Shown here: positions 9,306-48,312 of the stretch, in pieces
Position numbering within the stretch: the first letter of the stretch is position 1
Layout: every line of letters starts with the position of its first letter
NCBI RefSeq assembly: GCF_000973085.1
Contig: NZ_CP011280.1
Location: forward strand, 398,642-462,641
Direction of reading: 5' to 3'
DNA: 64,000 nucleotides
DNA from: Sneathia vaginalis
Lineage (GTDB): Bacteria > Fusobacteriota > Fusobacteriia > Fusobacteriales > Leptotrichiaceae
Made by a program: the position numbers and the translations under genes
The notes under the pieces: generated by a model
Databases searched by the model: none
What the model was told of the DNA's origin: nothing
The model's input: the letters and a program-made list of their open reading frames with translations, nothing else

Positions 9306-9317
9306 GAAGGTAGAAAA

Positions 9318-10739: not shown

Positions 10740-10756
10740 AAAGAGGTGATTTTTAG

Positions 10757-11803: not shown

Positions 11804-11810
11804 ATATATG

Positions 11811-11843: not shown

Positions 11844-11981
11844 AGCATCTATTTTCAAAATAAATAAAAACGAATAAAAAAGTTAAGAAACTACAAGTGA
11901 CTAAAAATAAATCTACAAACAAAAGAAAGCGTTGAGTTTTTAATATGTTAACAAAGAAAATAAAAAAAAGTTTAAAAAATG

Positions 11982-12008
11982 TTGAAAATAAATGGGGGGG
12001 GGTAAAAT
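11982..12008 (+). promoter_or_regulatory. Putative phase-variable promoter with a G9 tract in the spacer
   Basis: TTGAAA (11982-11987) and TAAAAT (12003-12008) resemble -35 and -10 boxes; the 15-base spacer contains a run of nine G (11994-12002). Slippage of the tract would change the spacing towards or away from 17 bases. A caveat is that a start site about seven bases after this -10 would leave only a very short leader before the Shine-Dalgarno AAGGAG (12014-12019). A G9 run is striking in DNA this AT-rich. Confidence 0.5.
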
Positions 12009-12028
12009 TTGTTAAGGAGATGATATTA

Positions 12029-12304
12029 ATGAAAATATTTTCAAGATTTAAAGCAAGAAAAAGTATAATTACAGCTTTATTAATAAGCTCTTTTTTAAGT
12101 AGTAGAATAGGATTTGGTGAAGAAAAGAATAAGCCATTAACTGAAGCTGAAAAAACTCAAGTAGAAGAAGTTATAAAGCAATTAGGAATAGAAAGAGCTA
12201 AAACTTTATTTGACTTATTAATCAAAAAAAATGAAACAGATAAAGTAAGAGAAATCATAAAAAAAATAAATGAAGTAGAAGGAACAGATGAAGAAAAAAA
12301 GTAA
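12029..12304 (+). CDS. N-terminal part of a YadA-like trimeric autotransporter (separated by a frameshift)
   Basis: Start at ATG 12029, with AAGGAGAT at 12014-12021; upstream in-frame codons to 11945 cross the G9 run and look like leader. The 91 residues have a basic start (MKIFSRFKARKS), a hydrophobic core ITALLISSFLS and a GFGEE cleavage region: an extended-type signal peptide as in trimeric autotransporters. Then follows a charged helical segment. The frame ends in the run A7 at 12294-12300 with AAG TAA. One additional A would join it to the downstream open frame, which stays open from 12301 onward. So this is the export part of the adhesin, currently out of frame. Confidence 0.7.
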   Translation: MKIFSRFKARKSIITALLISSFLSSRIGFGEEKNKPLTEAEKTQVEEVIKQLGIERAKTLFDLLIKKNETDKVREIIKKINEVEGTDEEKK

Positions 12305-12411
12305 AAAAGGAAGATATTATTGAAAAAGGAGAGGGGCCATTTAGTAGTAATATATTAAAGGACATTAAAGACACTGAAAATAATTCAATTGTTAGAATTT
12401 ATCGATCAGGC

Positions 12412-14751: not shown

Positions 14752-14773
14752 GGCTGTAAAGCTTCATTTTTTT
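14745..14773 (+). terminator. Intrinsic terminator after the adhesin
   Basis: AATGAGGC / GCTTCATT hairpin (one G-U pair) with a T run; the adhesin stop codon lies in the 5' arm. Confidence 0.85.
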
Positions 14774-14813
14774 AAAAATTTCTTGTATAATATAAAAAAA
14801 AGGAGGTATTTTT

Positions 14814-31088: not shown

Positions 31089-31140
31089 TTGACAATTAAA
31101 AAAAACAAGGTATACTCTTAATAAGAGTGCACGGGCACAA
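31089..31140 (+). promoter_or_regulatory. Promoter and candidate operator of the sugar-island regulator
   Basis: TTGACA (31089-31094), 16-base spacer, TATACT (31111-31116). Just downstream, GTGCACGGGCACAA (31127-31140) has inverted GTGC/GCAC halves and resembles TGTGCGAGCACAAG upstream of xylA, suggesting LacI-type binding sites and self-regulation. Two further inverted repeats lie upstream: GAAAGTACTTTC (30996-31007) and TGCATAATGTTTATGCA (31016-31032). Confidence 0.65.
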
Positions 31141-31151: not shown

Positions 31152-32180
31152 ATGGTTACAATTAAAGAAATCGCTAAAAAAGCTGGGGTTTCCAGAGGAA
31201 CAGTTGATAGAGTGATAAATAATAGAGGTTCGGTTAAAAGTGAGACTAAAGAAAAAATATTAAAAATACTTGAAAAAGAAAATTATAAGCCTAATATATT
31301 TGGGAAAATGTTGGCTAATAATAAATATAGTAAAAAAATGATAGGTGTAATACTAAATTCAAAAGGAAATCCATTTTATGACCAAGTTATAAACGGTATT
31401 GAAAATAAGAAAGAAGTTTTAGAAAATTTTGGTTTTGAATTATTATATGAATTAAAAAAAGGATATGATGTAAAAGATCAAATTAATGCAATTGACAAAA
31501 TGATTTTAAATGAAGTACAAGGTCTTATTATAACACCTATAGATGATAAAAAAGTGATTAATAGATTACAAGAAATAAGTAAAAAATCTATTCCAGTTAT
31601 TAATTTAAATATAGATATTGATAATGCTGATAAGTTAGCATATATAGGATCTGATTACAAAAAAACTGGAAATGTTGCTGGTGCGTTATTTAATATTTTT
31701 TCAACAAAAAAAATATATAAATTACTTGTTGTAACTGGTTCTAAATTGGTGTCTGGACATAGAAATCGAATAAATGGACTAAAAGAATATTTAGAAAAAA
31801 ATGATAATGGCATTCAAATTATAGATATTATAGAAAATGAAGATAATGATGATAAGTCATATAAAATGATTAATCAGTATATTCAAAAAAATAAGGATTT
31901 TGATGGTGTGTTTTTCTCAGCAGGTGGTATTGAGGGTGGAATAAAAGCTTTAGAAAAAAACCATATATTAGATAAAATAAATATTATAACTGTGGATTTG
32001 ATTCCAATTGTTGAAGAATACATAAAAAAAGATAAGATTTCAGCTACAATTTGTCAAGAACCTTTTAAGCAAGGTCAACTAGCTGTAGAAGTGTTATTAG
32101 AATATTTAATTATGAATAAAGTTCCAATTAATAAAAGAATAATTATGACAACTGAAATTAAAATTAAAGAAAACTTATAA
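31152..32180 (+). CDS. LacI-family transcriptional regulator of the xyloside/xylose island
   Basis: 342 residues: LacI-type helix-turn-helix at the N-terminus (VTIKEIAKKAGVSRGTVDRV, hinge region near 45-60), then a periplasmic-binding-like sugar domain (MIGVILNSKGNPFYDQVI, INLNIDIDN, VTGSKLVSGHRNRI). It probably represses the island in the absence of a sugar effector. It is not the ROK-type XylR common in Firmicutes xyl operons. AAGGAG is in front of the ATG. Candidate operators are in its own leader and before xylA. Confidence 0.88.
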   Translation: MVTIKEIAKKAGVSRGTVDRVINNRGSVKSETKEKILKILEKENYKPNIFGKMLANNKYSKKMIGVILNSKGNPFYDQVINGIENKKEVLENFGFELLYELKKGYDVKDQINAIDKMILNEVQGLIITPIDDKKVINRLQEISKKSIPVINLNIDIDNADKLAYIGSDYKKTGNVAGALFNIFSTKKIYKLLVVTGSKLVSGHRNRINGLKEYLEKNDNGIQIIDIIENEDNDDKSYKMINQYIQKNKDFDGVFFSAGGIEGGIKALEKNHILDKINIITVDLIPIVEEYIKKDKISATICQEPFKQGQLAVEVLLEYLIMNKVPINKRIIMTTEIKIKENL

Positions 32181-32201
32181 AAAAAATTTTAAATAAAAAT
32201 G

Positions 32202-32213
32202 TGTGCGAGCACA
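32202..32213. promoter_or_regulatory. Candidate operator upstream of xylA
   Basis: TGTGC GA GCACA palindrome between the regulator and xylA, 16 bases before the xylA ATG; shares GCACAAG with the element at 31127-31140. Confidence 0.55.
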
Positions 32214-32229
32214 AGAAAAGGGGTTGATT

Positions 32230-33537
32230 ATGAAATATTTTTCAAATATTGAAAAGGTAAGTTTTGAGGGAAAGGGGACAAAAAATAGATTTGCATTTAG
32301 ACATTATAATCCTAATGAAGTTATAATGGGTAAAACAATGGAAGAACAACTTCGTTTTGCTGTTGCTTATTGGCATACAATGAATGGTACAGGAAGTGAT
32401 CCATTTGGTGATGGAACATATATTAGAAATTGGAATGGAAGAACTCATATGGAAACAGCAAAAAATAAAGTTAATGCTTTCTTCGAATTATTAGAAATAC
32501 TTAATGTTAAGTATTTTACATTCCACGATATTGATATTGCACCACAAGGTGAAAGTCTTAAAGAATTTATGGATAATATAGATGAAATTACAGACTTAAT
32601 TAAAGAAAAAATGGATAAGACTGGAATTAAATTATTATGGAACACTCAAAATCTATTTACTCATCCAAGATTTATAAACGGTGCTGCTACATCTAATAAT
32701 GCTGATGTATTTGCATATGCTGCTGCACAAGTTAAGAAAACTATTGAAGTTAGTAAAAAATTAAATGGTGAAAATATCGTATTTTGGGGTGGAAGAGAAG
32801 GTTATGAATCTCTATTAAATACAGACTTAAATTTAGAGCTAGATAATATGGCAAGATTATTAAAAATGGCTGTTGATTATGCAAAGAAAATAGGACATAA
32901 AGTTCAATTCTTAATAGAACCTAAACCAAAAGAACCAATGACACACCAATATGACCATGATGCTGCAACTACAATAGCTTTCCTATATAAATATAATTTA
33001 ATTAATGACTTTAAATTAAATTTAGAAGGAAACCACGCAACTTTAGCTGGTCATACATTTGAACATGAATTAAGAACAGCTAGAAGTTATGGACTTTTAG
33101 GTTCAATTGATGCAAACCATGCTGAGACAATTTTAGGATGGGATACAGATGAATTTCCTACAAATATATATGATACAACACTTGCAATGTATGAAATTCT
33201 GGAAAATAATGGATTACAAAAAGGTGGAATAAACTTTGATGCTAAAGTTAGAAGAACATCTACTTCTATGGAAGACTTAGTTTTAGCACATATAGCTGGT
33301 ATGGATACATATGCTAGAGGATTAAAATCAGCGGCTAAAATGAAAGAAGAAAAATTCTTTGATAGTATTATTCAAGAAAGATATGCTAGCTATAAAGAAG
33401 GAATAGGTGCTAGCATCGTTAGTGATAATGAAAATTTAGAAACATTAACAGATTATGCTATGAAAAATGGTGAAATTGAAAATAAATCTAATCATTTAGA
33501 ATATATTAAGTCTATGTTAAATGATTATTTAGTATAA
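32230..33537 (+). CDS. xylA: Xylose isomerase
   Basis: 435 residues from ATG 32230 (AAAGGGG upstream). It has family motifs: FAVAYWHTMNGTGSDPFG, TFHDIDIAPQGESL with the catalytic His/Asp, IEPKPKEPMTHQYDHD and LNLEGNHATLAGHTFEHEL with metal-binding Glu/His. It converts D-xylose to D-xylulose. The length is that of class II enzymes. It is followed 16 bases later by xylB. Confidence 0.97.
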   Translation: MKYFSNIEKVSFEGKGTKNRFAFRHYNPNEVIMGKTMEEQLRFAVAYWHTMNGTGSDPFGDGTYIRNWNGRTHMETAKNKVNAFFELLEILNVKYFTFHDIDIAPQGESLKEFMDNIDEITDLIKEKMDKTGIKLLWNTQNLFTHPRFINGAATSNNADVFAYAAAQVKKTIEVSKKLNGENIVFWGGREGYESLLNTDLNLELDNMARLLKMAVDYAKKIGHKVQFLIEPKPKEPMTHQYDHDAATTIAFLYKYNLINDFKLNLEGNHATLAGHTFEHELRTARSYGLLGSIDANHAETILGWDTDEFPTNIYDTTLAMYEILENNGLQKGGINFDAKVRRTSTSMEDLVLAHIAGMDTYARGLKSAAKMKEEKFFDSIIQERYASYKEGIGASIVSDNENLETLTDYAMKNGEIENKSNHLEYIKSMLNDYLV

Positions 33538-33553
33538 TTAGGAGAAATATTTT

Positions 33554-35071
33554 ATGAGTTATGTACTGGGAATTGATTTAGGGACAAGTTCTTTAAAAGG
33601 TTTAGTTTTAAATAAAAATGGAGAAATTGTTGAAACAGAACAATATTCTTATCCACTTATTCAAGAAAAAATTGGATATAGCGAACAAAATCCGAAATTT
33701 TGGGTAGAAGCTTTAGAAAATGTAATCAATAATTTATCAAGTAAAATATCGGATTTTACTGAAAACCTTGAAGGAATAAGTTTTTCAGGGCAAATGCACA
33801 GTTTAGTCCTTTTAGATAAATGCGGTAAAGTTTTAAGAAATGCAATATTATGGAATGATGTTAGAACTACTGCTGAATGTAATGAAATAATGAAGGATTC
33901 TTTAAAACTTTTTGAAATTACTAAAAATAGAGCTCTTGAAGGTTTTACATTGCCAAAAATAATGTGGGTACAAAAAAATGAAAAAGAAATATGGGATAAT
34001 GTAAGACATATATTATTACCTAAAGATTATCTTTCATTTTGGTTAACAGGTGAATATGTTACTGATTATTCGGATGCTTCAGGGACTTTATTACTTGATT
34101 TAAATAAAAATGAATGGTCTTCTTATCAATTAGAAAAGTATGATATTCCTAAAGAATATATGCCAAAACTTTTAGGATCTTATGAATTAGTAGGAACTAT
34201 AAAAGCTGAATTAAAAACAAAATTTAATTTTAAGAAAAATATAAAAATATTTGCTGGAGGTGCTGATAATGCCTGTGCTGCACTAACAACAGGAATATAT
34301 GATGAGAATAAGGCTATGGTAAGTATAGGAACCTCTGGAGTATTCTTAACACTAGAGAATAATGTTGATAAAGAATATAATGGAAAGTTACATGTTTTCA
34401 ATCATGTTATTAAAGGATTATATTACTCAATGGGTGTTACATTATCAGCTGGTCATAGTTTAGAATGGTTCAGAAAAACTTTTGCTAAAAACAGTAACTT
34501 TAATGAATTGTTAGAAAAGATAGATGAAATTCCTGCTGGTTCAAATGGCTTATTATTTACACCGTATATAGTTGGAGAAAGAACTCCACATATTGATGCT
34601 AACATAAGAGGAAGTTTTATTGGTATAGATACTAGTCATAACTTAAATCATTTTACAAAATCAGTTGTTGAGGGGATTACATTTTCTTTAAAAGATAGTC
34701 AAGAATTGATTAATGAAATAACAAATAAAAAAATTAATGAAGTTATATCAATAGGTGGGGGAGCAAAAAATAAAAAATGGCTTCAATTACAAGCAGATAT
34801 ATTTGGTTTAAATGTTAAAACAGTTTCAGTTGAACAAGGACCATCTTTAGGAGCTGCTATGCTTTCTGCATTAGGATTATCTTGGTATAAAAATGAACGT
34901 GAATGTATAAAATCATTAATAAATTATTCAAATAGTTATACTCCAGATAATGATAAAAAAGAGAAATATAAAAATATATATGGAATATATAAAAAAATAT
35001 ATGATAATACAAATTTAATTTGTAAGGAAATAAATAATAAAGGAGTAAGAAATGGTAACAATAAAGGATAA
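33554..35071 (+). CDS. xylB: Xylulokinase
   Basis: 505 residues of the FGGY kinase family: YVLGIDLGTSSLKGLVL (phosphate-binding), SFSGQMHSLVLLD, GGADNACAALTTGIY, and the ATP-domain ISIGGGAKNKKWLQLQADIFG. It phosphorylates D-xylulose, linking xylose to the pentose-phosphate pathway. It overlaps the GH31 gene by 20 bases; the AAAGGAG for that gene lies inside the xylB end. Confidence 0.96.
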   Translation: MSYVLGIDLGTSSLKGLVLNKNGEIVETEQYSYPLIQEKIGYSEQNPKFWVEALENVINNLSSKISDFTENLEGISFSGQMHSLVLLDKCGKVLRNAILWNDVRTTAECNEIMKDSLKLFEITKNRALEGFTLPKIMWVQKNEKEIWDNVRHILLPKDYLSFWLTGEYVTDYSDASGTLLLDLNKNEWSSYQLEKYDIPKEYMPKLLGSYELVGTIKAELKTKFNFKKNIKIFAGGADNACAALTTGIYDENKAMVSIGTSGVFLTLENNVDKEYNGKLHVFNHVIKGLYYSMGVTLSAGHSLEWFRKTFAKNSNFNELLEKIDEIPAGSNGLLFTPYIVGERTPHIDANIRGSFIGIDTSHNLNHFTKSVVEGITFSLKDSQELINEITNKKINEVISIGGGAKNKKWLQLQADIFGLNVKTVSVEQGPSLGAAMLSALGLSWYKNERECIKSLINYSNSYTPDNDKKEKYKNIYGIYKKIYDNTNLICKEINNKGVRNGNNKG

Positions 35072-37133
35072 TTGCATTGTAAAAACATATGATGAAGAGT
35101 TATTAATAATAGAACCATGGGGTGAAAACTCATTAAGAGTTAGATCTTTCTTAGATCAAAAATATGTGGATAGAAAGAATGCTTTGACTGAAAACTATTC
35201 TAGTAATTACCCTAATTTATTAATTTATAAGGAAAATGATAAAGCTGTTATTGTTAATGGTAAGATTAAAGCAGTTTTAGATCATAGAGATAGAATAAGT
35301 TTTTTTAATGATAAAGATGAATTAATACTTAAAGAGTTTATAAGACTAAGAGCTGTTAAACACGATGACGGAAGTGAAGATGTAGGAACGATTGAAATAA
35401 CTAAAGATTTTAATTCTACTCTAAAATTAAAATCTAGGGAATACAGATCAAATTTTGATGGTTCGAGTTTTAATGTAAAAGTTAGATTTGAAGCAAATAA
35501 AGAAGAAAAAATATATGGTATGGGTCAATACCAACACGAATATTTAGATTTAAAAAATACAATGCTTGAGTTAGCACAAAGAAATACACAAATGTCTGTT
35601 CCATTTTATATTTCAAGTAAGAATTATGGGTTCTTATGGAATAATCCTGGAATAGGGAAAGTAACTTTTGCTAAAAATTTAACTGAATGGGAAATGTTTG
35701 GGACTGATTATATTGACTATTGGATAACAGTTTCTGATGATTCTAAACAAATAACAGAACAATATACACAAATGACTGGAAGAGTTCCAAAAATGCCGAA
35801 AAATTTACTTGGATTATGGCAAAGTAAATTAAGATATAGAACAGATGAAGAAGTTATTAATATAGTAGAAGAATACAAAAAAAGAGATATACAATTGTCA
35901 ACAATTGCTATAGATTACTTCCACTGGCCAAAGCAAGGTGAATATAGATTTGATAGAGACTACTGGAAAGATCCATCTGGAATGGTTAATAAATTAAAAA
36001 ATGAATATAAAGTAGAACCTATTATTTCAATATGGCCTACAGTTCAATCAGATGCCTATAATTATAATACTTATCTTGAAAATGGCTATTTAGTAAAAGT
36101 TAATAGAGGTATTAGATTAACAATGCAAATACAAGGAAATACATTATATCTAGATACTACTAAAAAAGCTGCAAGAGATTATGTATGGAGTTTAATTAAG
36201 AAAAATTATAAAGATATTGGTATCGACTACTACTGGGTAGATGTGGCAGAACCAGGATTTGCTGTATATGATTTTGATAATTATAGATATAGTAAAGGAA
36301 CCGCTTTTTACTGTGGTAACTTATATCCAAATAAATATTTAGAAATGGTTTATGATGGTAATAAGGATTCTAATGAAGCTGTTGTAACATTAGTACGTGG
36401 AGCTTGGGCTGGTGCTCAAAAATATGGAGCGTTAGCTTGGTCAGGTGACATTGATTCTAGTTTTAAATCTTTTAGAAATCAAGTTAATACAGGATTAAAT
36501 ATGGGAATTGCTGGAATTACATGGTGGACAACTGACATAGGAGGTTTCCATGGAGGTAATCCAGAAGATGAAGAATTTAGAGAATTAATAATAAGATGGT
36601 TCCAATATAGTACTTTCTCCCCAATTTTAAGAATGCACGGGGATAGATTACCACATAGTAAACCTTTGTCAAATACTGGTGGTGGTTGTATGCCAACTGG
36701 AGCTGGAAATGAAATTTGGTCGTATGGTACAAAAGTTGAAGATATACTAACAAAATATGTTAGAATAAGAGAATTATTAAAGGATTATTTAGATAATCTA
36801 ATGCAAGAATCACATGAATTTGGTTATCCGATAATGCGTCCTTTATTCTATGAATTTAAAAATGATAAATTATCTTGGGAAGTTGATAATATTTATATGT
36901 TAGGTGATAGTATTCTTGTTTCTCCTATACTTTATTATAAAGATAGAAAAAGGGAAGTATATTTACCTGCCGATGAAAACTGGATAGACTTATATACTAA
37001 CAAGGTATATAAAGGTGGTAAAAAATATATTGTTGATGCAGGTATAGAAAAAATTCCTGTATTTATAAGAGAAAGATCAAAAGATAATTTTAAAGAATTA
37101 TTTAAATATATTGAAAAGAATATAAATAAATAA
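35052..37133 (+). CDS. Glycoside hydrolase family 31, alpha-xylosidase-like (1)
   Basis: 693 residues, no signal peptide, so cytoplasmic. N-terminal beta-sandwich, then a GH31 barrel: GLWQSKLRYRTDEEV, LSTIAIDYFHWPKQGEY, a nucleophile region YYWVDVAEPGF (Asp), the acid/base candidate LAWSGDIDSSF and RMHGDRLPHS. The short AIDYFHW and DVAEPG forms resemble alpha-xylosidases. It should release xylose from alpha-xylosides; its location after xylA/xylB supports this. Specificity is not provable from sequence. The ATG at 35052 has AAAGGAG six bases upstream. Confidence 0.87.
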   Translation: MVTIKDNCIVKTYDEELLIIEPWGENSLRVRSFLDQKYVDRKNALTENYSSNYPNLLIYKENDKAVIVNGKIKAVLDHRDRISFFNDKDELILKEFIRLRAVKHDDGSEDVGTIEITKDFNSTLKLKSREYRSNFDGSSFNVKVRFEANKEEKIYGMGQYQHEYLDLKNTMLELAQRNTQMSVPFYISSKNYGFLWNNPGIGKVTFAKNLTEWEMFGTDYIDYWITVSDDSKQITEQYTQMTGRVPKMPKNLLGLWQSKLRYRTDEEVINIVEEYKKRDIQLSTIAIDYFHWPKQGEYRFDRDYWKDPSGMVNKLKNEYKVEPIISIWPTVQSDAYNYNTYLENGYLVKVNRGIRLTMQIQGNTLYLDTTKKAARDYVWSLIKKNYKDIGIDYYWVDVAEPGFAVYDFDNYRYSKGTAFYCGNLYPNKYLEMVYDGNKDSNEAVVTLVRGAWAGAQKYGALAWSGDIDSSFKSFRNQVNTGLNMGIAGITWWTTDIGGFHGGNPEDEEFRELIIRWFQYSTFSPILRMHGDRLPHSKPLSNTGGGCMPTGAGNEIWSYGTKVEDILTKYVRIRELLKDYLDNLMQESHEFGYPIMRPLFYEFKNDKLSWEVDNIYMLGDSILVSPILYYKDRKREVYLPADENWIDLYTNKVYKGGKKYIVDAGIEKIPVFIRERSKDNFKELFKYIEKNINK

Positions 37134-37149
37134 TTATATTGGAGAAAAA

Positions 37150-39189
37150 ATGAATAAACAGAATCGATATAAAATAAGTAACAATTCATTTTCTGCAATA
37201 AATGATAAAGAAATATTAATTGTTGAAGAGTGGGGAGTAGATGCTATTAGAGTCTACTCATCACCTAAAAATAAAAAAATTAAAAATGAATTTGGAATTA
37301 AAGAGTTAAAAAAAAATGAAAATTCAAATTTTAAAATAATACAAAATGGAGATATTATTGAATTTATAAATGGCAATTTAAAAGTTGAATATAAAGATAA
37401 TAAATTATTTTTTTATAATAAAAATCAATTAATTCTAGAAGAATATTCAAGAAAACAAAGTAATGTTAGAAGGACTATTGGAATAGATGATGATGTTAAA
37501 ATAGAATATAAGCCATCATATTCATTAAATATTTCACCAAGGGAATTTAAAAAAAATTATAAGGATTCGTTTGAGTCAATACAATTATTTGAGACTGATA
37601 TAAACGAGAAAATTTTTGGAATGGGTTCTTATGCAGAGGAAAATTTGAATAAGAATTTAGGAATGTATGAATTAATGCAAAGAAACTCACAAACTACAAT
37701 ACCTTTCTATATTTCAAATAAAAATTATGGTTTTTTATGGAATGGTTCATCGATAGGTAATGTATCATTTAATAAAAACTATAAAAAATGGGTAAATAAT
37801 AATACCGAATGTATAGATTATGTTGTAATTGTTGGAGAAAATCCAAAAGATATAATTGAAAAATATACTTTTATGGTTGGTAGAGCACCAATAATTAAAA
37901 AAGAATTATTAGGTCTTTGGCAAAGTAAACTAAGATATCAAACAACTAATGAAGTTGAATCAATATATAATGAATACTTAAATAGGAAAATAAAACCTTC
38001 AGTAATTGTTATAGATTATTTTCATTGGACTGAAGATGGAAATTTTGAATTTGATGATAATTATTGGAAAGATATAGATAAATTGTCAAAAAAAATGAAA
38101 GAAACTAACACTGAATTAATGGTTTCTGTTTGGCCAACTGTTAGTAAAAATTCAAAATATTATAATTATTATAAAAATAATAAGATGTTATTAGAACCTA
38201 GAGATAATAAATCAAAAATATTTGATAATAAAGATATTCTTGACTTCTATAATGACGAAACAAAAAAATTCGTCTCAAATTTATTAACAAACAATTATAA
38301 AACCAAGAATATTAAATTATTCTGGGCAGATCAAGCAGAACCTGAAATGAATATATATGAGCAAAGAGAGTATAATACTTCAAAAGGAAATTTTGAAAAA
38401 ATGGCAAATAGATATCCTTATGAGTATTTAATGACAATACCTAGAGAAGAAGGATATCCAGTATTAATAAGATCTGCATGGTTTAATTCACAAAAAGAAG
38501 GAAGTCTTGTTTGGTCTGGGGATATAGATAGTTCATTTAAATCTTTAAGAGAACAAATACAAATACTAATTAGTATGGGACTATCAGGAATCTCTTGGAG
38601 CACAACAGACATAGCAGGTTTCCATAGTGGAGATTCAACTACACAAAAATTTAAGGAATTAATGATTAGATGGTTTCAATTTGCTGTATTTAGTCCAGTT
38701 TTAAGAATGCATGGGGATAGACAACCTCATAGTCAAAAAATTGGTAAAACAGGAGGAGGAGTAAGAACAAGTGGATCTAGTAATGAAATTTGGTCATTTG
38801 GAACAGAAGTTGAAAGAATCTTAACAAAATATATTAGAATTAGAGAAAAATTAGTTGATTATATATTTAAATTATATGAAGAAAGTACAAATTTTGGTTA
38901 TCCAATTTCAAGAAGTTTATTCTTTGAATTTCCAAATGATAAAAAAGCTTGGGACGATAGACTTTCGTATATGTTCGGAAGTGATTTACTCATAAGTCCT
39001 GTTATTGATTTTGAAATGAAAAAAATGAAGGTTTATTTACCTGATGGAAATGATTGGATTAACGTATTTAATAATAAAGTTTACAAAGGTGGTAAGGATT
39101 ATATAATAGAATTTAGTTTAGAAACTTTACCAGTATTTTGTAAAAAAGATAGCTATTTAGCTAAAAAAATAAATTATATTTTTAATTAA
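37150..39189 (+). CDS. Glycoside hydrolase family 31, alpha-xylosidase-like (2)
   Basis: 679 residues, a diverged paralogue of the previous gene (same GLWQSKLRYQT, VIVIDYFHWTEDG, LVWSGDIDSSFKS and RMHGDRQPHS blocks; nucleophile region LFWADQAEPEMN). Cytoplasmic. Two tandem family members with different active-site neighbours suggest they cut different linkages or steps of one oligosaccharide. GGAG precedes the ATG. Confidence 0.87.
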   Translation: MNKQNRYKISNNSFSAINDKEILIVEEWGVDAIRVYSSPKNKKIKNEFGIKELKKNENSNFKIIQNGDIIEFINGNLKVEYKDNKLFFYNKNQLILEEYSRKQSNVRRTIGIDDDVKIEYKPSYSLNISPREFKKNYKDSFESIQLFETDINEKIFGMGSYAEENLNKNLGMYELMQRNSQTTIPFYISNKNYGFLWNGSSIGNVSFNKNYKKWVNNNTECIDYVVIVGENPKDIIEKYTFMVGRAPIIKKELLGLWQSKLRYQTTNEVESIYNEYLNRKIKPSVIVIDYFHWTEDGNFEFDDNYWKDIDKLSKKMKETNTELMVSVWPTVSKNSKYYNYYKNNKMLLEPRDNKSKIFDNKDILDFYNDETKKFVSNLLTNNYKTKNIKLFWADQAEPEMNIYEQREYNTSKGNFEKMANRYPYEYLMTIPREEGYPVLIRSAWFNSQKEGSLVWSGDIDSSFKSLREQIQILISMGLSGISWSTTDIAGFHSGDSTTQKFKELMIRWFQFAVFSPVLRMHGDRQPHSQKIGKTGGGVRTSGSSNEIWSFGTEVERILTKYIRIREKLVDYIFKLYEESTNFGYPISRSLFFEFPNDKKAWDDRLSYMFGSDLLISPVIDFEMKKMKVYLPDGNDWINVFNNKVYKGGKDYIIEFSLETLPVFCKKDSYLAKKINYIFN

Positions 39190-39206
39190 AATGAAAGGAT
39201 ATAGAT

Positions 39207-39683
39207 ATGGGAATAAAGTTAGCAAGAATTGATGAAAGATTAGTACACGGTATAGTTGTAACTCAATGGACAAGTACAACAAATGCACAAAGAATAATGG
39301 TTATAGATGATGTTGTAGCAGAAGATGAGATGAGAAAATCAGCTATGAGAATGAGCAAGCCATCAGGAGTTGGTATGTCACTTATTAATGAAAAGACAGC
39401 AATAACTAATATTAAAGCTGGTAAATATGATAATCATAATGTTTTATTAGTTGTTAATAATGTTGAAGTATTAGTAAGATTGGCAAAAGAAGGTATTAAA
39501 ATACCTAAAGTTAATATAGGTATTATGTTAGATAGACCTGAGCGTAAAAAATATGAAAAAAGTTTTGCAGCAACAGAAAATGAATTACAATTATTAAAAG
39601 AACTTGAAGATATGGGAATACCAGTAACTTATCAATTTGCACCTTCTGATAAAGAAGTATCATTAAAAGAATATTTAAAATAG
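39207..39683 (+). CDS. PTS mannose-family EIIB component (first system)
   Basis: 158 residues; the phosphorylated His is expected at residue 14 in RIDERLVHGIVVTQW. Typical IIB-Man/Sor length and fold (RIMVIDDVVAEDE). It accepts phosphate from the EIIA at 41297 and passes it to the sugar during transport. The genes IIB-IIC-IID-IIA follow each other here. Confidence 0.94.
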   Translation: MGIKLARIDERLVHGIVVTQWTSTTNAQRIMVIDDVVAEDEMRKSAMRMSKPSGVGMSLINEKTAITNIKAGKYDNHNVLLVVNNVEVLVRLAKEGIKIPKVNIGIMLDRPERKKYEKSFAATENELQLLKELEDMGIPVTYQFAPSDKEVSLKEYLK

Positions 39684-39701
39684 GAAAAGGAGATTAAAAT
39701 T

Positions 39702-40493
39702 ATGCCAAGTATTTTACAAGATATATTAATTATATTACTTCCAATGTATGCCTTAATAGATAATCGTGGTATCACAATAGTTAACCACTGGCCAGTAACA
39801 GTTGGGTTCTTTGCAGGGTTAATAATGGGAGATTTACAATCAGCATTAGTTATAGCTGGAACATTTCAATTAATGAGTTTAGGAGTAGCTGCTTTAGGTG
39901 GATCATCAGTACCTGATTACGCTCTTGCTACTGTAGTTGCAATATATTTAAATGCTAGAACTGGAGCTACAATAGGGACAGCTGTTGCTATTGGATTACC
40001 AGTTGGTATAATAGCAATAAATCTAGATGTATTAACAAGAACATTAAATTCATTTGTTTCTGAAAAGGCAAAACAATATTTAGAAAAGAAACAATTTAAA
40101 AAGATGCAAAATGTTAACTTTATAAGTGTATTCTTTGTTTCTATGCAAGCATTTATTCCTATGATTATACTAGTTGTATTTGGACCAACAGCTGTAGAAA
40201 CTATTATAAAGATAACACCTGATTGGTTTACAAATGGTTTAAATATTGCTGGAGGAATGCTACCAGTAGTTGGGGTTGTAATGTTAATGCGTTATATGCC
40301 TACAAGTCGTTATATTTGGGCATTATTAATTGGGTTTGTAATTGCTGCGTATATGAAATTACCAATATTAGCAATTTCTATAGTAGGATTTGCATTAGGA
40401 GTTTATGTTTACAAAGATATGATATCTAAAAAGCAAATGGTAACAAATAATACCGAAGCAGTTTATGAAGGAGGAGTTGATTTTGATGAATAA
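39702..40493 (+). CDS. PTS mannose-family EIIC component (first system)
   Basis: 263 residues with about seven membrane helices; family blocks GLIMGDLQSALVIAGTFQLMSLG and ARTGATIGTAVAIGLPVG. Forms the sugar channel with EIID. AAAGGAG precedes the ATG; the end overlaps the IID start by eight bases. Confidence 0.94.
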   Translation: MPSILQDILIILLPMYALIDNRGITIVNHWPVTVGFFAGLIMGDLQSALVIAGTFQLMSLGVAALGGSSVPDYALATVVAIYLNARTGATIGTAVAIGLPVGIIAINLDVLTRTLNSFVSEKAKQYLEKKQFKKMQNVNFISVFFVSMQAFIPMIILVVFGPTAVETIIKITPDWFTNGLNIAGGMLPVVGVVMLMRYMPTSRYIWALLIGFVIAAYMKLPILAISIVGFALGVYVYKDMISKKQMVTNNTEAVYEGGVDFDE

Positions 40494-41292
40494 TGGAATA
40501 AAATTATCTGAAAAAAATAAAAAAAGAGCCGTTTGGAAATTTTCTTTCATAGGTGCTAACAATTTAAATTATGGGACTTTAATGGGGACAGGTTATGCTT
40601 GGGCTGTTGCTGATCCACTAAGAGAAATATATAAAAATGATGAAGATTATCAAAAAGCAATGAGAATGGAACATGAATATTTTAATATTACACCATATAT
40701 GGGACCACTTGTAATCGGAGCAGATTTAGCAATGCAAGAAAAAGAAGGACTAGAATCATTAAATGCTGTAAGATCTATTAAAACTTCATTAATGGGACCT
40801 TTATCTGGTATTGGAGATTCATTATTATGGGTATTATATCCTACAATAATGGGATCAATTGCAGGTTATATGGCGTTAGATGGGAATCCATTAGGTGCTA
40901 TAATATGGATGTTATTGAATTTAACGCTAATACTTTTAAGATTAAAATTGTTTGAAATTGGATATAATTCAGGTGTTAGATTAATTACTGATTTATCTGA
41001 TAAATTAAGTGCAATAACAGAAGGTGCTTCAGTAATGGGGTTAACAGTAGTTGGAAGCTTAATTGCTACTGTTGTAAGAGTAAAATCTCCTATTGAGTTT
41101 AAATTTGGAGAAGTCGTTTTAAATCTACAAACTGGTATTTTTGATAAGATTTTACCTGCATTATTACCAGTTACTTTAACTGGAATAGTATACTATTTAA
41201 TGGAAAAAAGAAAATGGGGATTCTTAAGAGTTATACTAACTATAGTTGTATTCTCATTAATAGGATCATACTTTAAAGTTTTAGGAGCGTAG
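40486..41292 (+). CDS. PTS mannose-family EIID component (first system)
   Basis: 268 residues from ATG 40486; GGAGG lies upstream (an ATG at 40465 belongs to the IIC end). IID-type features: AVWKFSFIGANNLNYGTLMGTG, a cytosolic segment, then ALxGPLSGIGDSLLW-like SLMGPLSGIGDSLLW and C-terminal membrane helices. Pairs with EIIC in the membrane. Confidence 0.93.
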   Translation: MNNGIKLSEKNKKRAVWKFSFIGANNLNYGTLMGTGYAWAVADPLREIYKNDEDYQKAMRMEHEYFNITPYMGPLVIGADLAMQEKEGLESLNAVRSIKTSLMGPLSGIGDSLLWVLYPTIMGSIAGYMALDGNPLGAIIWMLLNLTLILLRLKLFEIGYNSGVRLITDLSDKLSAITEGASVMGLTVVGSLIATVVRVKSPIEFKFGEVVLNLQTGIFDKILPALLPVTLTGIVYYLMEKRKWGFLRVILTIVVFSLIGSYFKVLGA

Positions 41293-41296
41293 CTTT

Positions 41297-41716
41297 ATGA
41301 AAAAAATTATTGTTGCAAGTCATCATAAGCTTGCTAATGGATTTAAGAACACATTAGAATATATTTTGCCTAATACAGTTGAAATAATTGACATTAGTGC
41401 TTATTTAGAAAATGTTTCAGTTGATAAACAAATTGATGAAGTATTAAGTAATTTTACTAAAGAAGAGCAAATCTTTGTATTTACTGATATACCAGGAGGA
41501 TCTGTTAATCAAGCTTTTATAAGAAGATTAAACGATTATAATATAGAATTAATTTCTGGAACAAATTTATCAATTTTAATTTCAATAGCTACTCAACTTG
41601 GGGAAAAAAATATTGATAAAGATACTATTAGAGAAGAAATAATAAATGCTGCTAGTGAAATTGTTTATGTAAATGATAAATTAGCAAGTCAATCTTTAGA
41701 TGAAGATGACGAATAA
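41297..41716 (+). CDS. PTS mannose-family EIIA component (first system)
   Basis: 139 residues; His9 in IVASHHKLANG is the expected phosphorylation site, and FVFTDIPGGSVNQ is the family DLxGGSP-like region. Takes phosphate from HPr and gives it to EIIB. Ends in an acidic tail. Confidence 0.92.
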   Translation: MKKIIVASHHKLANGFKNTLEYILPNTVEIIDISAYLENVSVDKQIDEVLSNFTKEEQIFVFTDIPGGSVNQAFIRRLNDYNIELISGTNLSILISIATQLGEKNIDKDTIREEIINAASEIVYVNDKLASQSLDEDDE

Positions 41717-41735
41717 AAAAAAATAGGAGAATTTT

Positions 41736-44120
41736 ATGTATATTGAAAAGTATAATGATTTTAATCCTTTGGCTAATCCAAAATCGATTATTATTGGAAA
41801 AGGATATAGAATTACCTTATTAACATCAAAATTAGTAAGATTAGAATATTCAAAAAATAATATTTTCGAAGATGCTAGAACTAAAATGGTTATAAATAGA
41901 AATTTTCCTGAGGTTTTATATGAAATTTATGAAGATGAAAACTCTCTTAAAATTATAACTAAAGATATAACTCTTAGATATAACAAAAGAGAGTTTTCTC
42001 CTTATGGACTAAGTATAGAATTAAACGGGAAAACAAAACATCCTTACAAAGAGATTTGGCACTTTAATGATAAATTAAGTAACCTTGGTGGAACAAGAAG
42101 AACACTTGATTTTATAGATGGAGAAGTTGAATTAGATGATGGAATTTTATCAGAGTATGGAATTAGCGTAATTGATGATTCTAACTCTCCAATACTTCTA
42201 GAAAATGGATGGTATGAGGATAGAAATTCTAATGAAATAGATTTATATGTTTTTGCTTACAAAAGAAATTATAAGGAAGCATTGAAAGATTTTTTCTTGT
42301 TAACAGGACCACAACCAAAATTACCTAGATATGCTCTTGGAAATTGGTGGAGTAGATATTATCCATATAATGAAAATAGTTATAAAGATTTGTTAGAAAA
42401 ATTTGAAAACGAAAAACTACCATTTTCTGTTGCTGTATTAGATATGGATTGGCATTTAGTTGATATTCCTGAAAAATATGGAAGTATTTGGACAGGTTAT
42501 ACTTGGAATCACGAGTTATTCCCGGATCCTAAAAGATTTATTGATTATATTAAAGAAAAAGGCTATAAAATAACATTAAATGTACATCCGTCAGCTGGAA
42601 TAAGACCGTTTGAAATAATGTATAGAGATTTTGCTAAAGCTATGAATATTGATCCTAATAAAGATTTATACATTGATTTTGACCATAAGTCAAAAACATT
42701 TTTTGAAAATACATTTAAATATTTATATAAACCAAATGAAGATATTGGAGTTGATTTTTGGTGGATAGATTGGCAACAAAGCCCAACAAAAATAGATGAA
42801 AATAAAGATCCATTATGGGTATTAAACCATTATCACTATAATGATAATAAAAAAAATAATAATATTGGATTAACTTTCTCAAGATATGCTGGACCAGGAA
42901 GTCATAGGTATCCAGTTGGTTTTTCTGGAGACACTGTAATAAGTTGGGAATCTCTAGATTTTCAACCATATTTTACATCTACAGCATCTAATATAGGTTA
43001 TGGATGGTGGAGTCATGATATTGGTGGTCACAGACATGGTTATAGGTCAGATGAATTAACTTTAAGATGGATACAGTTTGGAGTATTTTCTCCTATAAAT
43101 AGATTACATAGTTCAAATTCTGAATTTATAGAAAAAGAACCATGGAATTTTAAAGAACCATATAAAACAATAATAGTAGAATATTTAAGATTAAGACATG
43201 AGTTGATTCCATATACATATACTATGAATGTTATTGCAAATACTGAAAATATTCCATTAATTAGACCTATGTACTATGAATATCCAGAAAATAAAGAAAG
43301 TTATAAAGTAAAAAATCAATACTATTTTGGATCTGAACTTCTAATTTGTCCAATTACTAAGAAAATAAATGAAGAATCAGAAATGGCTGAATTCAAAGCA
43401 TGGTTACCTAAAGGAAATTGGTATGATCTTCAAATAGGGTTAAAGTATAGTGGTAATAGGAATATCACTATAAATAGAGGTATAGAAAACTTAGGTATAT
43501 TTTTTAAAGAAGGGTCAATTATACCATTAGCAAAATTAAAAGAAAGAATTAATAATATTGATAATCCTGAAAATCTAAGAATTATTATTGGTTCTGGAGA
43601 TGATGGTGAATTTAACTTAATAGAAGATAATAAAGATAATCTATCAAATGTTGAATCAGTAACTACAAATTTTAAATATTTAGAAAATGATAGTAAAATT
43701 TTAATTCATAAGGCTGAAGGAAATATAAATGTTATTCCTAGATATAGAAGTTTTGAATTTAATATATATGGAAAAAAAATAAAAAAAGTTATGATTAAAA
43801 TTAAAGATAGTATTAGAGAAATAGGAACAGAATATAATTTTAAAAAGAATATAACAAGTTTTATAATTAGGGAAATACCTATAAATGAAAATGTTGAAAT
43901 TACTTTTGAATATGATGAAGCTGTTTTTGATTCAAAGACTCAAAAATTAGATATTATTAAAAAGTTTCTTAAAAAATCACAAATGAGTAATGTAGATAAA
44001 GATGAAATATATAAAATTTTAGTAGCTAATAAAGATTATAAAACAACTATATCTGAAATTTTAAATTACGATACTAGCTTAGCAATAAAAAATGTTTTAT
44101 TAGAAATTATTTTAGCATAA
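41736..44120 (+). CDS. Glycoside hydrolase family 31 (3), alpha-glucosidase/xylosidase type
   Basis: 794 residues, cytoplasmic, of a different GH31 subgroup from the two upstream. Blocks: GNWWSRYYPYNENSY, FSVAVLDMDWHLVDIP, GYTWNHELFPDPKRFIDY, the nucleophile region VDFWWIDWQQSP (Asp), FSGDTVISWESL (acid/base region), GYGWWSHDIGGHRHG. A C-terminal beta domain and about 80 extra residues follow (KKVMIKIKDS onward). It could cleave the glucoside part of the imported sugar. Last gene of the first sugar operon. Confidence 0.87.
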   Translation: MYIEKYNDFNPLANPKSIIIGKGYRITLLTSKLVRLEYSKNNIFEDARTKMVINRNFPEVLYEIYEDENSLKIITKDITLRYNKREFSPYGLSIELNGKTKHPYKEIWHFNDKLSNLGGTRRTLDFIDGEVELDDGILSEYGISVIDDSNSPILLENGWYEDRNSNEIDLYVFAYKRNYKEALKDFFLLTGPQPKLPRYALGNWWSRYYPYNENSYKDLLEKFENEKLPFSVAVLDMDWHLVDIPEKYGSIWTGYTWNHELFPDPKRFIDYIKEKGYKITLNVHPSAGIRPFEIMYRDFAKAMNIDPNKDLYIDFDHKSKTFFENTFKYLYKPNEDIGVDFWWIDWQQSPTKIDENKDPLWVLNHYHYNDNKKNNNIGLTFSRYAGPGSHRYPVGFSGDTVISWESLDFQPYFTSTASNIGYGWWSHDIGGHRHGYRSDELTLRWIQFGVFSPINRLHSSNSEFIEKEPWNFKEPYKTIIVEYLRLRHELIPYTYTMNVIANTENIPLIRPMYYEYPENKESYKVKNQYYFGSELLICPITKKINEESEMAEFKAWLPKGNWYDLQIGLKYSGNRNITINRGIENLGIFFKEGSIIPLAKLKERINNIDNPENLRIIIGSGDDGEFNLIEDNKDNLSNVESVTTNFKYLENDSKILIHKAEGNINVIPRYRSFEFNIYGKKIKKVMIKIKDSIREIGTEYNFKKNITSFIIREIPINENVEITFEYDEAVFDSKTQKLDIIKKFLKKSQMSNVDKDEIYKILVANKDYKTTISEILNYDTSLAIKNVLLEIILA

Positions 44121-44362: not shown

Positions 44363-45538
44363 TTAATAAATAATAGCGAATCTACTTTTCATATTTCTGT
44401 TGTACTCCCCTATAATAACAATATTATTTTCTTTATATATAAAATTATTATTTTTTCTAATAAAATTAACAATATTTAAGTATAGATTTTCTTTTGTATT
44501 GTGTTGGTACATATCAGGATTGATGATAATATATTCAATTATATTTAACGTAAGTTTTATAAATTTATTATTTAATTTTTTACAATCTTTTATTGATCTT
44601 AAAATCATATCCCTTTTATTTTCATAGACATTTTCAATATAAATAATAGGTTGTTTATTAAATTCTTTAAGTTTATTATTAAAATTATTATTATATAAGT
44701 CATTGTTTATAGTAGTTTTAATATCTAGTTCTTGTAATAAAGCGTACTTAAAATTATTTTCAACAAATGTTTTACCGTATTTTGATATAGATTCTTTTAA
44801 ATATTTGAACATTATTTCTTTATCTTCTGTGTTAAGATTTAAATTATGGATCATTCTTGAAGTAGAAATTTCAATTAGTGAATCATATTTATTCTTAATA
44901 AAGAAAATAATAGAAGTAATATTTCTTTGATTTTTCTTTTTAACCTTTATATATTCAATGTTTATATTTTTATATTTCTTTATTTCATTAATAGATTTTT
45001 TTAAAATATTTTTTTCAAAATCATAAAATCTAGAATATTCTTTATTAATAGACAAAATATCTTTTAATAGAGATAAATCTATTTCAACAATATTGTCAAA
45101 GATATGATTATCATAAAGATATGTATAAAGATTAAATGTATGATTTTTAAATAGTATTCTATTATCAAATCTTGCTAATTTAAAATCGTTGTAAGAATCA
45201 TTAAAGATATTTATTAAATCTTGAGATATTTTAATACTAAAAATATTATTTCTATAAGAAAAACTAGAAATTATTCTAATAATTCCCTTATTTTCAAAAT
45301 TCAATTTTGAGGATTTATAAATAAAATATTTTTTTGAAAAATTTATAAAAAAGTTAAACCAATCATTATCAATATCTAATTTATATTTAGAATTTAATTT
45401 TTCTTCAAGAAGTTCAATATAATAAGTACCATATCTAATATTTTTAATGATATTTTTAAATAATTGAGACTCAATTTTATTAAAATTTTGATTAAGTTTT
45501 ATATAATCATCAGTAGAAAAAAATTTTTTTTTATTCAT
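44363..45538 (-). CDS. Rep_3/RepB-type plasmid replication initiator
   Basis: 391 residues, extremely Asn/Lys/Ile-rich. The central part has the Rep_3 winged-helix pattern: FKNHTFNLYTYLYDN, SLLKDILSINKEYSRFYDFEKNILKKSINEI, followed by KNINIEYIKVKKKNQRNITSIIFFIK. This is the YxRFYDFEKNxL...AxxEI...G/Rxxx.xF signature of theta-plasmid initiators. In a plasmid it would bind iterons and start replication. Here it lies among chromosomal genes, divergent from a PTS operon. The upstream gap (45539-45732) is extremely AT-rich with two copies of ACGAAAAAAAAT (45576-45587, 45663-45674) but no clear iteron array. Confidence 0.8.
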   Translation of the reverse strand: MNKKKFFSTDDYIKLNQNFNKIESQLFKNIIKNIRYGTYYIELLEEKLNSKYKLDIDNDWFNFFINFSKKYFIYKSSKLNFENKGIIRIISSFSYRNNIFSIKISQDLINIFNDSYNDFKLARFDNRILFKNHTFNLYTYLYDNHIFDNIVEIDLSLLKDILSINKEYSRFYDFEKNILKKSINEIKKYKNINIEYIKVKKKNQRNITSIIFFIKNKYDSLIEISTSRMIHNLNLNTEDKEIMFKYLKESISKYGKTFVENNFKYALLQELDIKTTINNDLYNNNFNNKLKEFNKQPIIYIENVYENKRDMILRSIKDCKKLNNKFIKLTLNIIEYIIINPDMYQHNTKENLYLNIVNFIRKNNNFIYKENNIVIIGEYNRNMKSRFAIIY

Positions 45539-45674: not shown

Positions 45675-45732
45675 TAAAATTTTACTTTTTAAATTTTTGT
45701 TGTAAACTTCTATAAAAGAGGAGGTGATTATA

Positions 45733-46152
45733 ATGTTTGGAATAGTTGTTATTGGTCATGGTAAATTTGCTTCTGGAATAACAAGTAGTTTAAATTTATT
45801 AATTGGTAAATTAGATAACTATGTAGCAATAGATTTTTTAGAAAATGATGATATAAACACATTAGAGATTAAATTTAAAGAAAATCTTATCAAGTTAAAG
45901 GATTGTAAAAAAATAGCGATATATACAGATTTAAGAGGAGGTACTCCATTTAATATTGCTATTAAAGAAAAAATAATAAATGAAAGGTTAGAAGTAATAG
46001 GGGGAGCTAATTTAACTTCAATAATATCTTTTGCTATGGGAAGACTTTTATCCGAGAATTTCAATGAAATGATTAATAATAGTATTATTGAAGGAAGAGA
46101 AGAACTCTTGATATATAATAATATAATTGAAAACAATAATTTTGAAGAATAA
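45733..46152 (+). CDS. PTS mannose-family EIIA component (second system)
   Basis: 139 residues from ATG 45733 with AGGAGGTGAT upstream. His9 in VVIGHGKFASG is the phosphorylation site; IYTDLRGGTPFNIA is the conserved second motif. First gene of the second PTS operon. Confidence 0.94.
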   Translation: MFGIVVIGHGKFASGITSSLNLLIGKLDNYVAIDFLENDDINTLEIKFKENLIKLKDCKKIAIYTDLRGGTPFNIAIKEKIINERLEVIGGANLTSIISFAMGRLLSENFNEMINNSIIEGREELLIYNNIIENNNFEE

Positions 46153-46182
46153 TTTAAAAATGTGTGTGTGGGGGAGATTATT

Positions 46183-46995
46183 ATGAGTTTATTACAAGCT
46201 TTTCTAATAGGGATATTTGCCTATTTGGGTTGTAAACGTACGCCATGGTTTTTTGGGATAACAGGTGGTTGGAATATGATTGGAAGACCTTTAGTTGCAG
46301 GTTTGATTGTTGGAATAATTTTGGGCGATGTAACTAATGGTATAATTGCAGGTGCTATGGTTCAAGCATTATTTATTGGACAAATAACACCTGGTGGTGC
46401 TATGCCAGCTGATGTAAACTGGGCTTCATATATTGGAATACCATTAGCGTTAGCTGCTGGTGGTGGAGGAGCTGAAGCTGTTGCATTATCAGTACCATTA
46501 AGTTTATTAGGATTAGGAGTATTTAATTTTATAATGACAATTAATACTTATTTTCCTTTATTAGGTGATAAGGCTGCTAGCAAAGGAGATGGAAGAGGTA
46601 TTCATAGAGCAACATATTTAGCGGCAGTACCAAGTGCAATTTTAAGAATAGGTTCAGCATTTCTAATTTGTTATTTTGGAACACCTTTTGCAGAATCATT
46701 AATTAGTGCAATGCCATCTCAAGTACTTCATTTCTTTGAAGTTGCTGGAAGAATGTTGCCAGCAATTGGATTTGCAATGTTATTAAAACAATCATTATCC
46801 AAAACTTGGATGATAGTATTATTTTTATTAGGTTGGGTATTAATGATATCAACAAGTATGACTATAACAGCTCTTGCGACATTTGCTTTAGCAATAGCAT
46901 TTATATTTGTTAAATCTGAAGGAAATAGCCAAAATATAGTTACTAATGTTGATAATAATACATTAAATGTGGAGGATGATTGCTATGAAGACTGA
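46183..46995 (+). CDS. PTS mannose-family EIIC component (second system)
   Basis: 270 residues from ATG 46183 (GGGGGAGAT upstream). Membrane protein with LVAGLIVGIILGDVTNGIIAGAMVQALFIG and TPGGAMPADVNWASYIG, close to the agalacto/sorbose-type IIC group. Several helices follow, with an acidic tail overlapping the IID start by 11 bases. Confidence 0.94.
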   Translation: MSLLQAFLIGIFAYLGCKRTPWFFGITGGWNMIGRPLVAGLIVGIILGDVTNGIIAGAMVQALFIGQITPGGAMPADVNWASYIGIPLALAAGGGGAEAVALSVPLSLLGLGVFNFIMTINTYFPLLGDKAASKGDGRGIHRATYLAAVPSAILRIGSAFLICYFGTPFAESLISAMPSQVLHFFEVAGRMLPAIGFAMLLKQSLSKTWMIVLFLLGWVLMISTSMTITALATFALAIAFIFVKSEGNSQNIVTNVDNNTLNVEDDCYED

Positions 46996-47818
46996 TGAAA
47001 GAAAAAAATTAACTAAAAAGGATATAAGAAAAGCTGCATGGTCATATATTTTCTTTGGACAAGCAACACAAAATTTTGAGCGTATGATGGGACTTGGATA
47101 TTGCCATGTTATGGAACCAATACTCAAAAAATTATATAAAGATGACAAAGAAGAATACATAAAAGGATTACAAAGACACATGCAATTTTTTAATACAGAG
47201 TCACAATTAGGTTCAATAATACCAGGTATTACAATTGCAATGGAAGAGTCAAGAGCTAATGGAGAAGATGTTTCTGAAGAATTAATAGTAAATACTAAAA
47301 ACGCATTAATGGGGCCTTTTGCAGGTATTGGTGATTCTATGTTAATAGGAACTTGGAATCCTATTTTACTTAGTATTGGAATGGGTATGTGTATGTTGGA
47401 TGGAAACCCAATGGGTCCAATATTTTTCATGATAACATGGTTGCTTTCAGTACTTGCTTTACAATTATATCTATTCCACAAAGGGTATGAAATGGGAATA
47501 GGTCTTGCTAATGAATTTTTTAGTAATAAAGAATTAGCTAATAAAATTTCAAAAGGTTTAACAACGGTTGGTCTTGTTATCATAGGTGGTGTTGCAGCAA
47601 CAACCGTTAGAGCAAAAGTTATTTACTCATTTGTTAGTGGAGAAATGAAAATACCATTACAATCACAAATATTTGATAGAATAATGCCTACTTTATTACC
47701 GCTAATAATAACATTAGTAGCATGGTATTTAATGGATAAAAAGAAATATAAACCAACAAGTTTAATTTTATTTGTTATAATATTTGCAGCGATTATGGTT
47801 CTTTTAAAAATAATGTAA
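46985..47818 (+). CDS. PTS mannose-family EIID component (second system)
   Basis: 277 residues from ATG 46985 (GGAGGA upstream). Family blocks AAWSYIFFGQATQNFERMMG, ALMGPFAGIGDSMLIGTWNP and C-terminal helices with LIITLVAWYLMDKKK. Pairs with the upstream EIIC. Confidence 0.94.
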   Translation: MKTDERKKLTKKDIRKAAWSYIFFGQATQNFERMMGLGYCHVMEPILKKLYKDDKEEYIKGLQRHMQFFNTESQLGSIIPGITIAMEESRANGEDVSEELIVNTKNALMGPFAGIGDSMLIGTWNPILLSIGMGMCMLDGNPMGPIFFMITWLLSVLALQLYLFHKGYEMGIGLANEFFSNKELANKISKGLTTVGLVIIGGVAATTVRAKVIYSFVSGEMKIPLQSQIFDRIMPTLLPLIITLVAWYLMDKKKYKPTSLILFVIIFAAIMVLLKIM

Positions 47819-47827
47819 GGTGATTTG

Positions 47828-48310
47828 ATGGAAATAGTTAATATAAGAATAGATGATAGATTAATTCATGGCCAAGTTGCTACAGTATGGATTAAATTTA
47901 CAAAAGCAACAAGAATTATGGTTATAGATGATGAAGTTGTTAAAGATCAAATAAATAAAGAAGCCTTAAAAATGGCTTGTCCAAAACAGTGCAAATTATC
48001 AATATTAACAGTTGAAAAAGCAGTTAATAATATAAATGAGAGCAAATATGATGGTGAAAGAATTTTTGTGATTGTAAAAGGGCCAAAAACATTATGTAAA
48101 TTATATGATGCTGGCTTTGATATTAAAGAGTTTAATATAGGAAATATGGCTGGCAATTTAAATACAAAGATGTTAGTAAAATCAGTAAGTGTAAGTGAAG
48201 ATAACATAAAAGATTTTTTATATTTAGATACTAAAGGTATTAAAATAACAGCACAAATGGTTCCGTCTGATGAAAAAATTAATTTTATAAAAATAATAAA
48301 GGAAGTATAG
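47828..48310 (+). CDS. PTS mannose-family EIIB component (second system)
   Basis: 160 residues from ATG 47828 (AAGGTGA upstream). His14 in IRIDDRLIHGQVATVW is the expected phosphorylation site; IMVIDDEVVKDQ follows. Gene order IIA-IIC-IID-IIB differs from the first PTS, so this is a separately acquired system. Confidence 0.94.
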   Translation: MEIVNIRIDDRLIHGQVATVWIKFTKATRIMVIDDEVVKDQINKEALKMACPKQCKLSILTVEKAVNNINESKYDGERIFVIVKGPKTLCKLYDAGFDIKEFNIGNMAGNLNTKMLVKSVSVSEDNIKDFLYLDTKGIKITAQMVPSDEKINFIKIIKEV

Positions 48311-48312
48311 TG

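Follow-up and report, generated by a model that had tools for sequence, protein, structure and literature searches.

The isoprimeverose system XylP-XylQ consists of an importer and an intracellular GH31 alpha-xylosidase, and a similar link between such an enzyme and an importer is found in E. coli YicJ-YicI and in the locus described here, a ten-gene operon at positions 31152-44120 of a 64,000-nucleotide stretch of the Sneathia vaginalis genome (NZ_CP011280.1, positions 398,642 to 462,641; hereafter the window). XylP-XylQ and YicJ-YicI are however built on a cation symporter and not on a phosphotransferase system (PTS) as in Sneathia, and YicI is 25% identical to GH31a, the first of the three GH31 enzymes of the operon. 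A PTS for alpha-xylosides, Xyn-PTS, encoded beside xylS, was predicted from gene context by Gu et al. in 2010 in C. difficile (CD3070-3067) and E. faecalis (PMC2873477), so that the sequence-only reading of the window, which held such a PTS to be unusual and symporters to be the rule, does not stand on this point. The Sneathia operon resembles Xyn-PTS in combining a mannose-class PTS with a MeXyl31-type alpha-xylosidase and xylose genes, and GH31a shares 63-69% identity with its counterparts in the C. difficile and Enterococcus loci. It differs in that its PTS is of another lineage and has the gene order IIB-IIC-IID-IIA instead of IIC-IID-IIB-IIA, and in holding a further enzyme (GH31b), a GH31_u1 enzyme (GH31c) and a LacI regulator in place of ROK/XylR. 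We consider it likely, with a probability of about 0.7, that the operon is a horizontally acquired, PTS-fed scavenging system for small alpha-xylosides.

A PTS is likewise paired with a GH31_u1 enzyme in S. mutans SMU.100-104, which together with that of L. lactis LlGH31_u1 represents the described GH31_u1 clusters (PMC9061262), and the S. mutans sor/yicI genes are up 16-18-fold in starch and sucrose biofilms at 30 h (PMC2957427); unlike in the Sneathia operon, xylAB and alpha-xylosidases are not described in these clusters. By function the operon may furthermore be likened to alfRBEFG and gnb of L. casei, where a mannose-class PTS brings a disaccharide to an intracellular glycosidase, although those systems handle fucosides or lacto-N-biose and galacto-N-biose (LNB/GNB) and employ other glycosidase families. 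The AlfEFG proteins import Fuc-alpha1,3-GlcNAc, in which the fucose is without a C6-OH, in unphosphorylated form, and PTS-Gnb phosphorylates its disaccharides (PMC6109692). Xylose has no C6, much as fucose has no C6-OH, and in isoprimeverose the C6 of glucose is occupied, which had previously been taken to make this sugar an improbable substrate; since AlfEFG imports its disaccharide unphosphorylated, a blocked C6 would by analogy be no bar to the import of isoprimeverose.

The ten genes, named by Pfam and NCBIfam models, are all intact and on the plus strand, just as they had been described, and since they are separated by gaps of 4-22 nt or overlap (XylB/GH31a and IIC/IID), one transcript for the whole compact operon is likely. 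Two MeXyl31-type enzymes form its core. GH31a (35052-37133) and GH31b (37150-39189), both matched by PF01055, have the alpha-xylosidase MeXyl31 (PDB 5zn6) as their closest match, with identities of 46% and 35%, and are 43% identical to each other; sequence similarity to solved structures is decisive for the fold. The catalytic aspartate pair and the subsite -1 letters of MeXyl31 are kept in GH31a, in GH31b and in all orthologs examined, and the sole departure from the sugar-pocket letters of MeXyl31 is a tyrosine for a phenylalanine adjoining a conserved aspartate; the positions compared are those which we take, from general knowledge, to line the pocket in YicI. After this aspartate GH31a and GH31b have Tyr-Phe, whereas GH31c and LlGH31_u1 have Met-Asp. 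Both enzymes are probably MeXyl31-type alpha-xylosidases, predicted to be intracellular in the case of GH31a, in keeping with the tandem pair of alpha-xylosidase-like enzymes that the sequence-only reading had proposed. GH31b belongs to a clade of its own (support 100, members from 9 loci), and a consistent difference between the two enzymes is found just past the nucleophile, where V398 and G402 of GH31a face Q395 and E399 of GH31b; because of this difference the two probably differ in aglycone preference.

The third enzyme, GH31c (41736-44120; PF01055), is indeed of another subgroup, GH31_u1, but is probably not a xylosidase. It is 49% identical to LlGH31_u1 (PDB 7wj9; E 3.7e-200), with which it shares a clade of support 100, and it keeps residues Y99, H280, D341, Q343, F391, D394, H427 and S455 of that enzyme, departing from it at M122 and position 429. 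LlGH31_u1 is strongly selective for nigerose and its His280 binds O6 of the glucose unit that the enzyme splits off. Since the catalytic and main sugar-contact residues are kept, His280 included, GH31c is most likely an alpha-glucosidase, predicted to be an alpha-1,3-glucosidase, and the active-site residues led us to reject a role as a third xylosidase or an alpha1,3-xylosidase.

The PTS is complete, with IIB (39207-39683; PF03830, mannose/sorbose class, RLVHG motif with the phospho-histidine), IIC (39702-40493; PF03609, mannose/sorbose class), IID (40465-41292; PF03613, mannose class, nearest relatives in the tree in xyl operons) and IIA (41297-41716; PF03610, mannose class) all scoring over the Pfam cut-offs. 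Its relationships were analysed in a tree of IIC and IID with 36 rows, in which the C. difficile CD160 locus stands in for CD3070-3067 and the S. mutans SMU, L. casei AlfEFG and Gnb PTSs are not included. The PTSs of eight xyl operons form one clade (support 100/100) within a superclade (100/99.9) whose other members adjoin GH13 oligo-1,6-glucosidase-like or GH31_u1 enzymes, with the deep placements being less certain owing to long branches among the outgroups. The other alpha-xyloside PTSs, whose neighbours in C. difficile, Enterococcus, Atopobacter and an L. paracasei plasmid are relatives of GH31a, form a separate clade (100/100), and joining the two clades costs 47 log-likelihood units and is rejected by the approximately unbiased (AU) test (p = 0.0041; the groups were set by gene context, an earlier FastTree having been seen). 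The operon PTS is thus not orthologous to the C. difficile/Enterococcus Xyn-PTS. The GH31 tree, in contrast, places the type-A GH31a enzymes inside a group that includes those of C. difficile and Enterococcus as well, so that the transporter seems to have been replaced in the course of evolution. Mannose-class PTSs seem to have taken on alpha-xylosides on at least two occasions, each time from a different PTS lineage. The lineage of the operon PTS also points to short alpha-glycosides as cargo, putatively isomaltose-like and nigerose-like sugars because the partner enzymes are of two alpha-glucosidase kinds, and this suggests as xylose analogues isoprimeverose for the former and Xyl-alpha1,3-Glc for the latter.

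That the gene set is not a chance assembly follows from its conservation in other genomes. Besides a scan of genome contigs with GH31a we searched the Globicatella order (398 genomes) and the Anaerococcus family (130 genomes), and the GH31a and GH31b pair was found in nine loci, namely the window, Globicatella, Ruoffia, Trichococcus, Anaerococcus, three further genomes and the E. faecalis plasmids LR961958 and LR962000, which were counted as one. A PTS of this kind in the order IIB-IIC-IID-IIA is present in eight of the nine, with Trichococcus as the exception, and the retrieved locus includes xylA and/or xylB in all cases but Anaerococcus. The slot of the third enzyme is more variable, holding GH31c in four loci and a GH13 enzyme in the E. 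faecalis plasmid copy and being empty in the Anaerococcus group; the closest structure to the GH13 enzyme is an oligo-1,6-glucosidase, and as a candidate phospho-trehalase it falls below the cut-off of the treC equivalog model of NCBIfam but passes that of the broader subfamily model.

Gene families, active-site residues and conserved linkage all support PTS-fed breakdown of alpha-xylosides, and from these, together with gene content and phylogeny, we infer substrates, mode of transport and regulation as follows. The PTS would import short alpha-xylosyl sugars and related alpha-glucosides, the likeliest cargo being xylosyl-glucose disaccharides (isoprimeverose and/or Xyl-alpha1,3-Glc), and import would either be coupled to phosphorylation of the reducing-end glucose at a free C6 or be independent of phosphorylation. 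Inside the cell GH31a and GH31b, each acting on different aglycones, would split the sugar into D-xylose and glucose or glucose 6-phosphate, while GH31c may free glucose from alpha-1,3-glucosides. XylA (32203-33537; TIGR02630, 695 bits against a cut-off of 533; the in-frame ATG at 32230 is a likelier start than the listed GTG at 32203) and XylB (33554-35071; TIGR01312, 593 bits against 380) are identified as xylose isomerase and xylulokinase and would convert xylose into xylulose 5-phosphate, which would enter the pentose phosphate pathway; a non-oxidative branch of this pathway has been reported for S. amnii (PMC3535699). The LacI-family regulator with its Peripla_BP_4 sensor domain (31152-32180; PF00356 and PF13407) would turn on expression of the operon in response to the sugar. 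Three observations weigh against this reading. GH31b is no more than 35% identical to a characterised alpha-xylosidase, Trichococcus keeps xylAB-GH31a-GH31b but has lost the PTS save for a IIB remnant, so that the PTS is not indispensable, and the operon encodes no secreted enzyme, for which reason the sugar must come from elsewhere.

A LacI regulator sets the operon apart from most of its relatives of both PTS kinds, where a ROK/XylR-like regulator is found. Upstream of the LacI gene on the plus strand lie a candidate promoter, TTGACA-16-TATACT (31089-31116), and, at 31127-31138, the imperfect palindrome GTGCACGGGCAC, which may serve as a LacI operator, both identified by consensus match only, and promoter-like sites are no more frequent in this DNA than in shuffled sequence. 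The idea that this LacI shares its ligand with the LacI found beside GH31_u1 elsewhere was discarded, as their 40-42% identity spans only some 90 residues at the DNA-binding end.

The genome is a single contig of 1,330,224 bases with a G+C content of about 28% in the operon region, compared with about 1.34 Mb and 28% published for S. amnii/vaginalis (PMC3535699), and its three GH31 genes all lie within the operon. A xylose permease is absent from the island, as had been noted before, and genome-wide there is no strong match to the MFS sugar permease family PF00083. Two GPH symporters are encoded in the genome, one of them beside uronate-type genes. The GPH symporter at about 949634-950944 of the contig, adjacent to short-chain dehydrogenase/reductase (SDR) genes and to what by eye may be a mannonate dehydratase gene, resembles an importer of uronates or glucuronides. 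A literature search on Sneathia combined with xylose or PTS gave nothing useful.

Mannose-class PTSs are mostly monosaccharide importers, and the operon PTS matches NCBIfam models of the mannose and galactosamine types without reaching the cut-off of any, which could speak for a transporter of mannose, glucose or amino sugars that is a mere neighbour of an alpha-xyloside pathway with another importer. We nevertheless regard this as very unlikely, given that the PTS is linked to GH31a and GH31b in eight of nine loci and in a single clade, and that no dedicated xyloside symporter was found near the xyl genes. Mannose itself is an unlikely substrate because another of the four IID proteins of the genome fits the mannose IID model far better and because S. 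amnii/vaginalis does not ferment mannose; the genome paper lists complete 'mannose, galactitol and cellobiose' PTSs and terms their role unclear, with mannose unused (PMC3535699). The same species ferments glycogen and maltose (PMC3535699), and this would agree with an ordinary alpha-glucoside operon in which all three GH31 enzymes are alpha-glucosidases that degrade pieces of glycogen or starch, with xylAB as passengers, as would the residues of GH31c and the nesting of the PTS among PTSs beside alpha-glucosidases. LlGH31_u1 is however poor on maltose, the glycone site of both GH31a and GH31b is that of MeXyl31 and reads Tyr-Phe where GH31c and LlGH31_u1 read Met-Asp, and xylA and/or xylB accompany the pair in all retrieved loci except Anaerococcus, which makes such an operon highly improbable.

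Host glycans as the source of the xylosides deserve separate consideration. The sugar might be Xyl-alpha1,3-Xyl-alpha1,3-Glc of epidermal growth factor (EGF) repeats or pieces of matriglycan. The two xylosidases would then cleave both alpha1,3-xylosyl bonds, phosphorylation by the PTS would take place at the free C6 of glucose, and the common glycone site of GH31a and GH31b combined with their difference past the nucleophile would fit two aglycones. Some carriers are human-associated, namely this vaginal Sneathia and, by its name, Anaerococcus vaginimassiliensis, and sister PTSs adjoin a nigerose-type alpha-1,3-glucosidase, Xyl-alpha1,3-Glc being the xylose analogue of nigerose with C6 free. 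On the other hand, the carriers Trichococcus and Ruoffia tabacinasalis are not known to feed on human glycans, Sediminibacillus and Gracilibacillus likewise encode relatives of MeXyl31, and the operon lacks an endo- or O-glycosidase to free such a glycan. A host-derived sugar is possible, favoured by linkage chemistry and habitat and by nothing else in the sequence, and we hold it to be unlikely; the more specific notion, that the PTS evolved from a nigerose-type importer and takes the xylose analogue of nigerose from human glycoproteins (Xyl-alpha1,3-Xyl-alpha1,3-Glc or shorter), with glucose C6 phosphorylated on entry and the two GH31 enzymes cutting, is quite unlikely. To our knowledge no bacterial route for host alpha1,3-xylosyl glycans has been described, and this would, if true, be the first.

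The scavenging system for small alpha-xylosides was probably acquired horizontally, since the operon is present in one of 33 genomes surveyed in the family (11 genera, two species in this genus); none of the other genomes carries it, and the sister species has no GH31a match. Base composition does not mark the operon as foreign. It lies in a variable stretch, as the gene order of the sister species diverges right after an RNA methyltransferase gene at about 26380. The segment 26380-31150 suggests, by its DUF1016_N fragment and DUF6037 gene, a hotspot of exchange close to the genes for tRNA-Ser and tRNA-Arg. On the other side, between the xyl operon and a second PTS, a Rep3-like replication initiator gene (44363-45538, minus strand; weak PF21205 and RepE matches) lies in DNA of 17-18% GC; it has no plasmid match in PLSDB, and the region is possibly the remnant of an integrated plasmid. 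The second PTS operon (45724-50181) is of the mannose class with the order IIA-IIC-IID-IIB and is followed by a 623-aa protein weakly similar to DUF3604 and CehA-McbA metallohydrolases. A region of a mobilizable L. paracasei plasmid, pFAM18149.23 (8992-14798), encodes an alpha-xylosidase together with a ROK regulator and a Xyn-PTS like those of C. difficile and Enterococcus, flanked by insertion sequence (IS) elements.

While the idea of an alpha-xyloside PTS dates from 2010, the separately evolved PTS lineage, the second xylosidase, the GH31_u1 enzyme, the LacI regulator and the carrier, a Fusobacteriota member that is diderm since a YadA-type adhesin is encoded in the window, are new. The apparent double recruitment raises the question of how a PTS of this class would deal with a sugar that lacks a C6 for phosphorylation. 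The operon appears to have moved between Bacillota and Fusobacteriota, Enterococcus plasmids included, and for Sneathia amnii/vaginalis it would offer a concrete, testable substrate class for one of the mannose-class PTSs.

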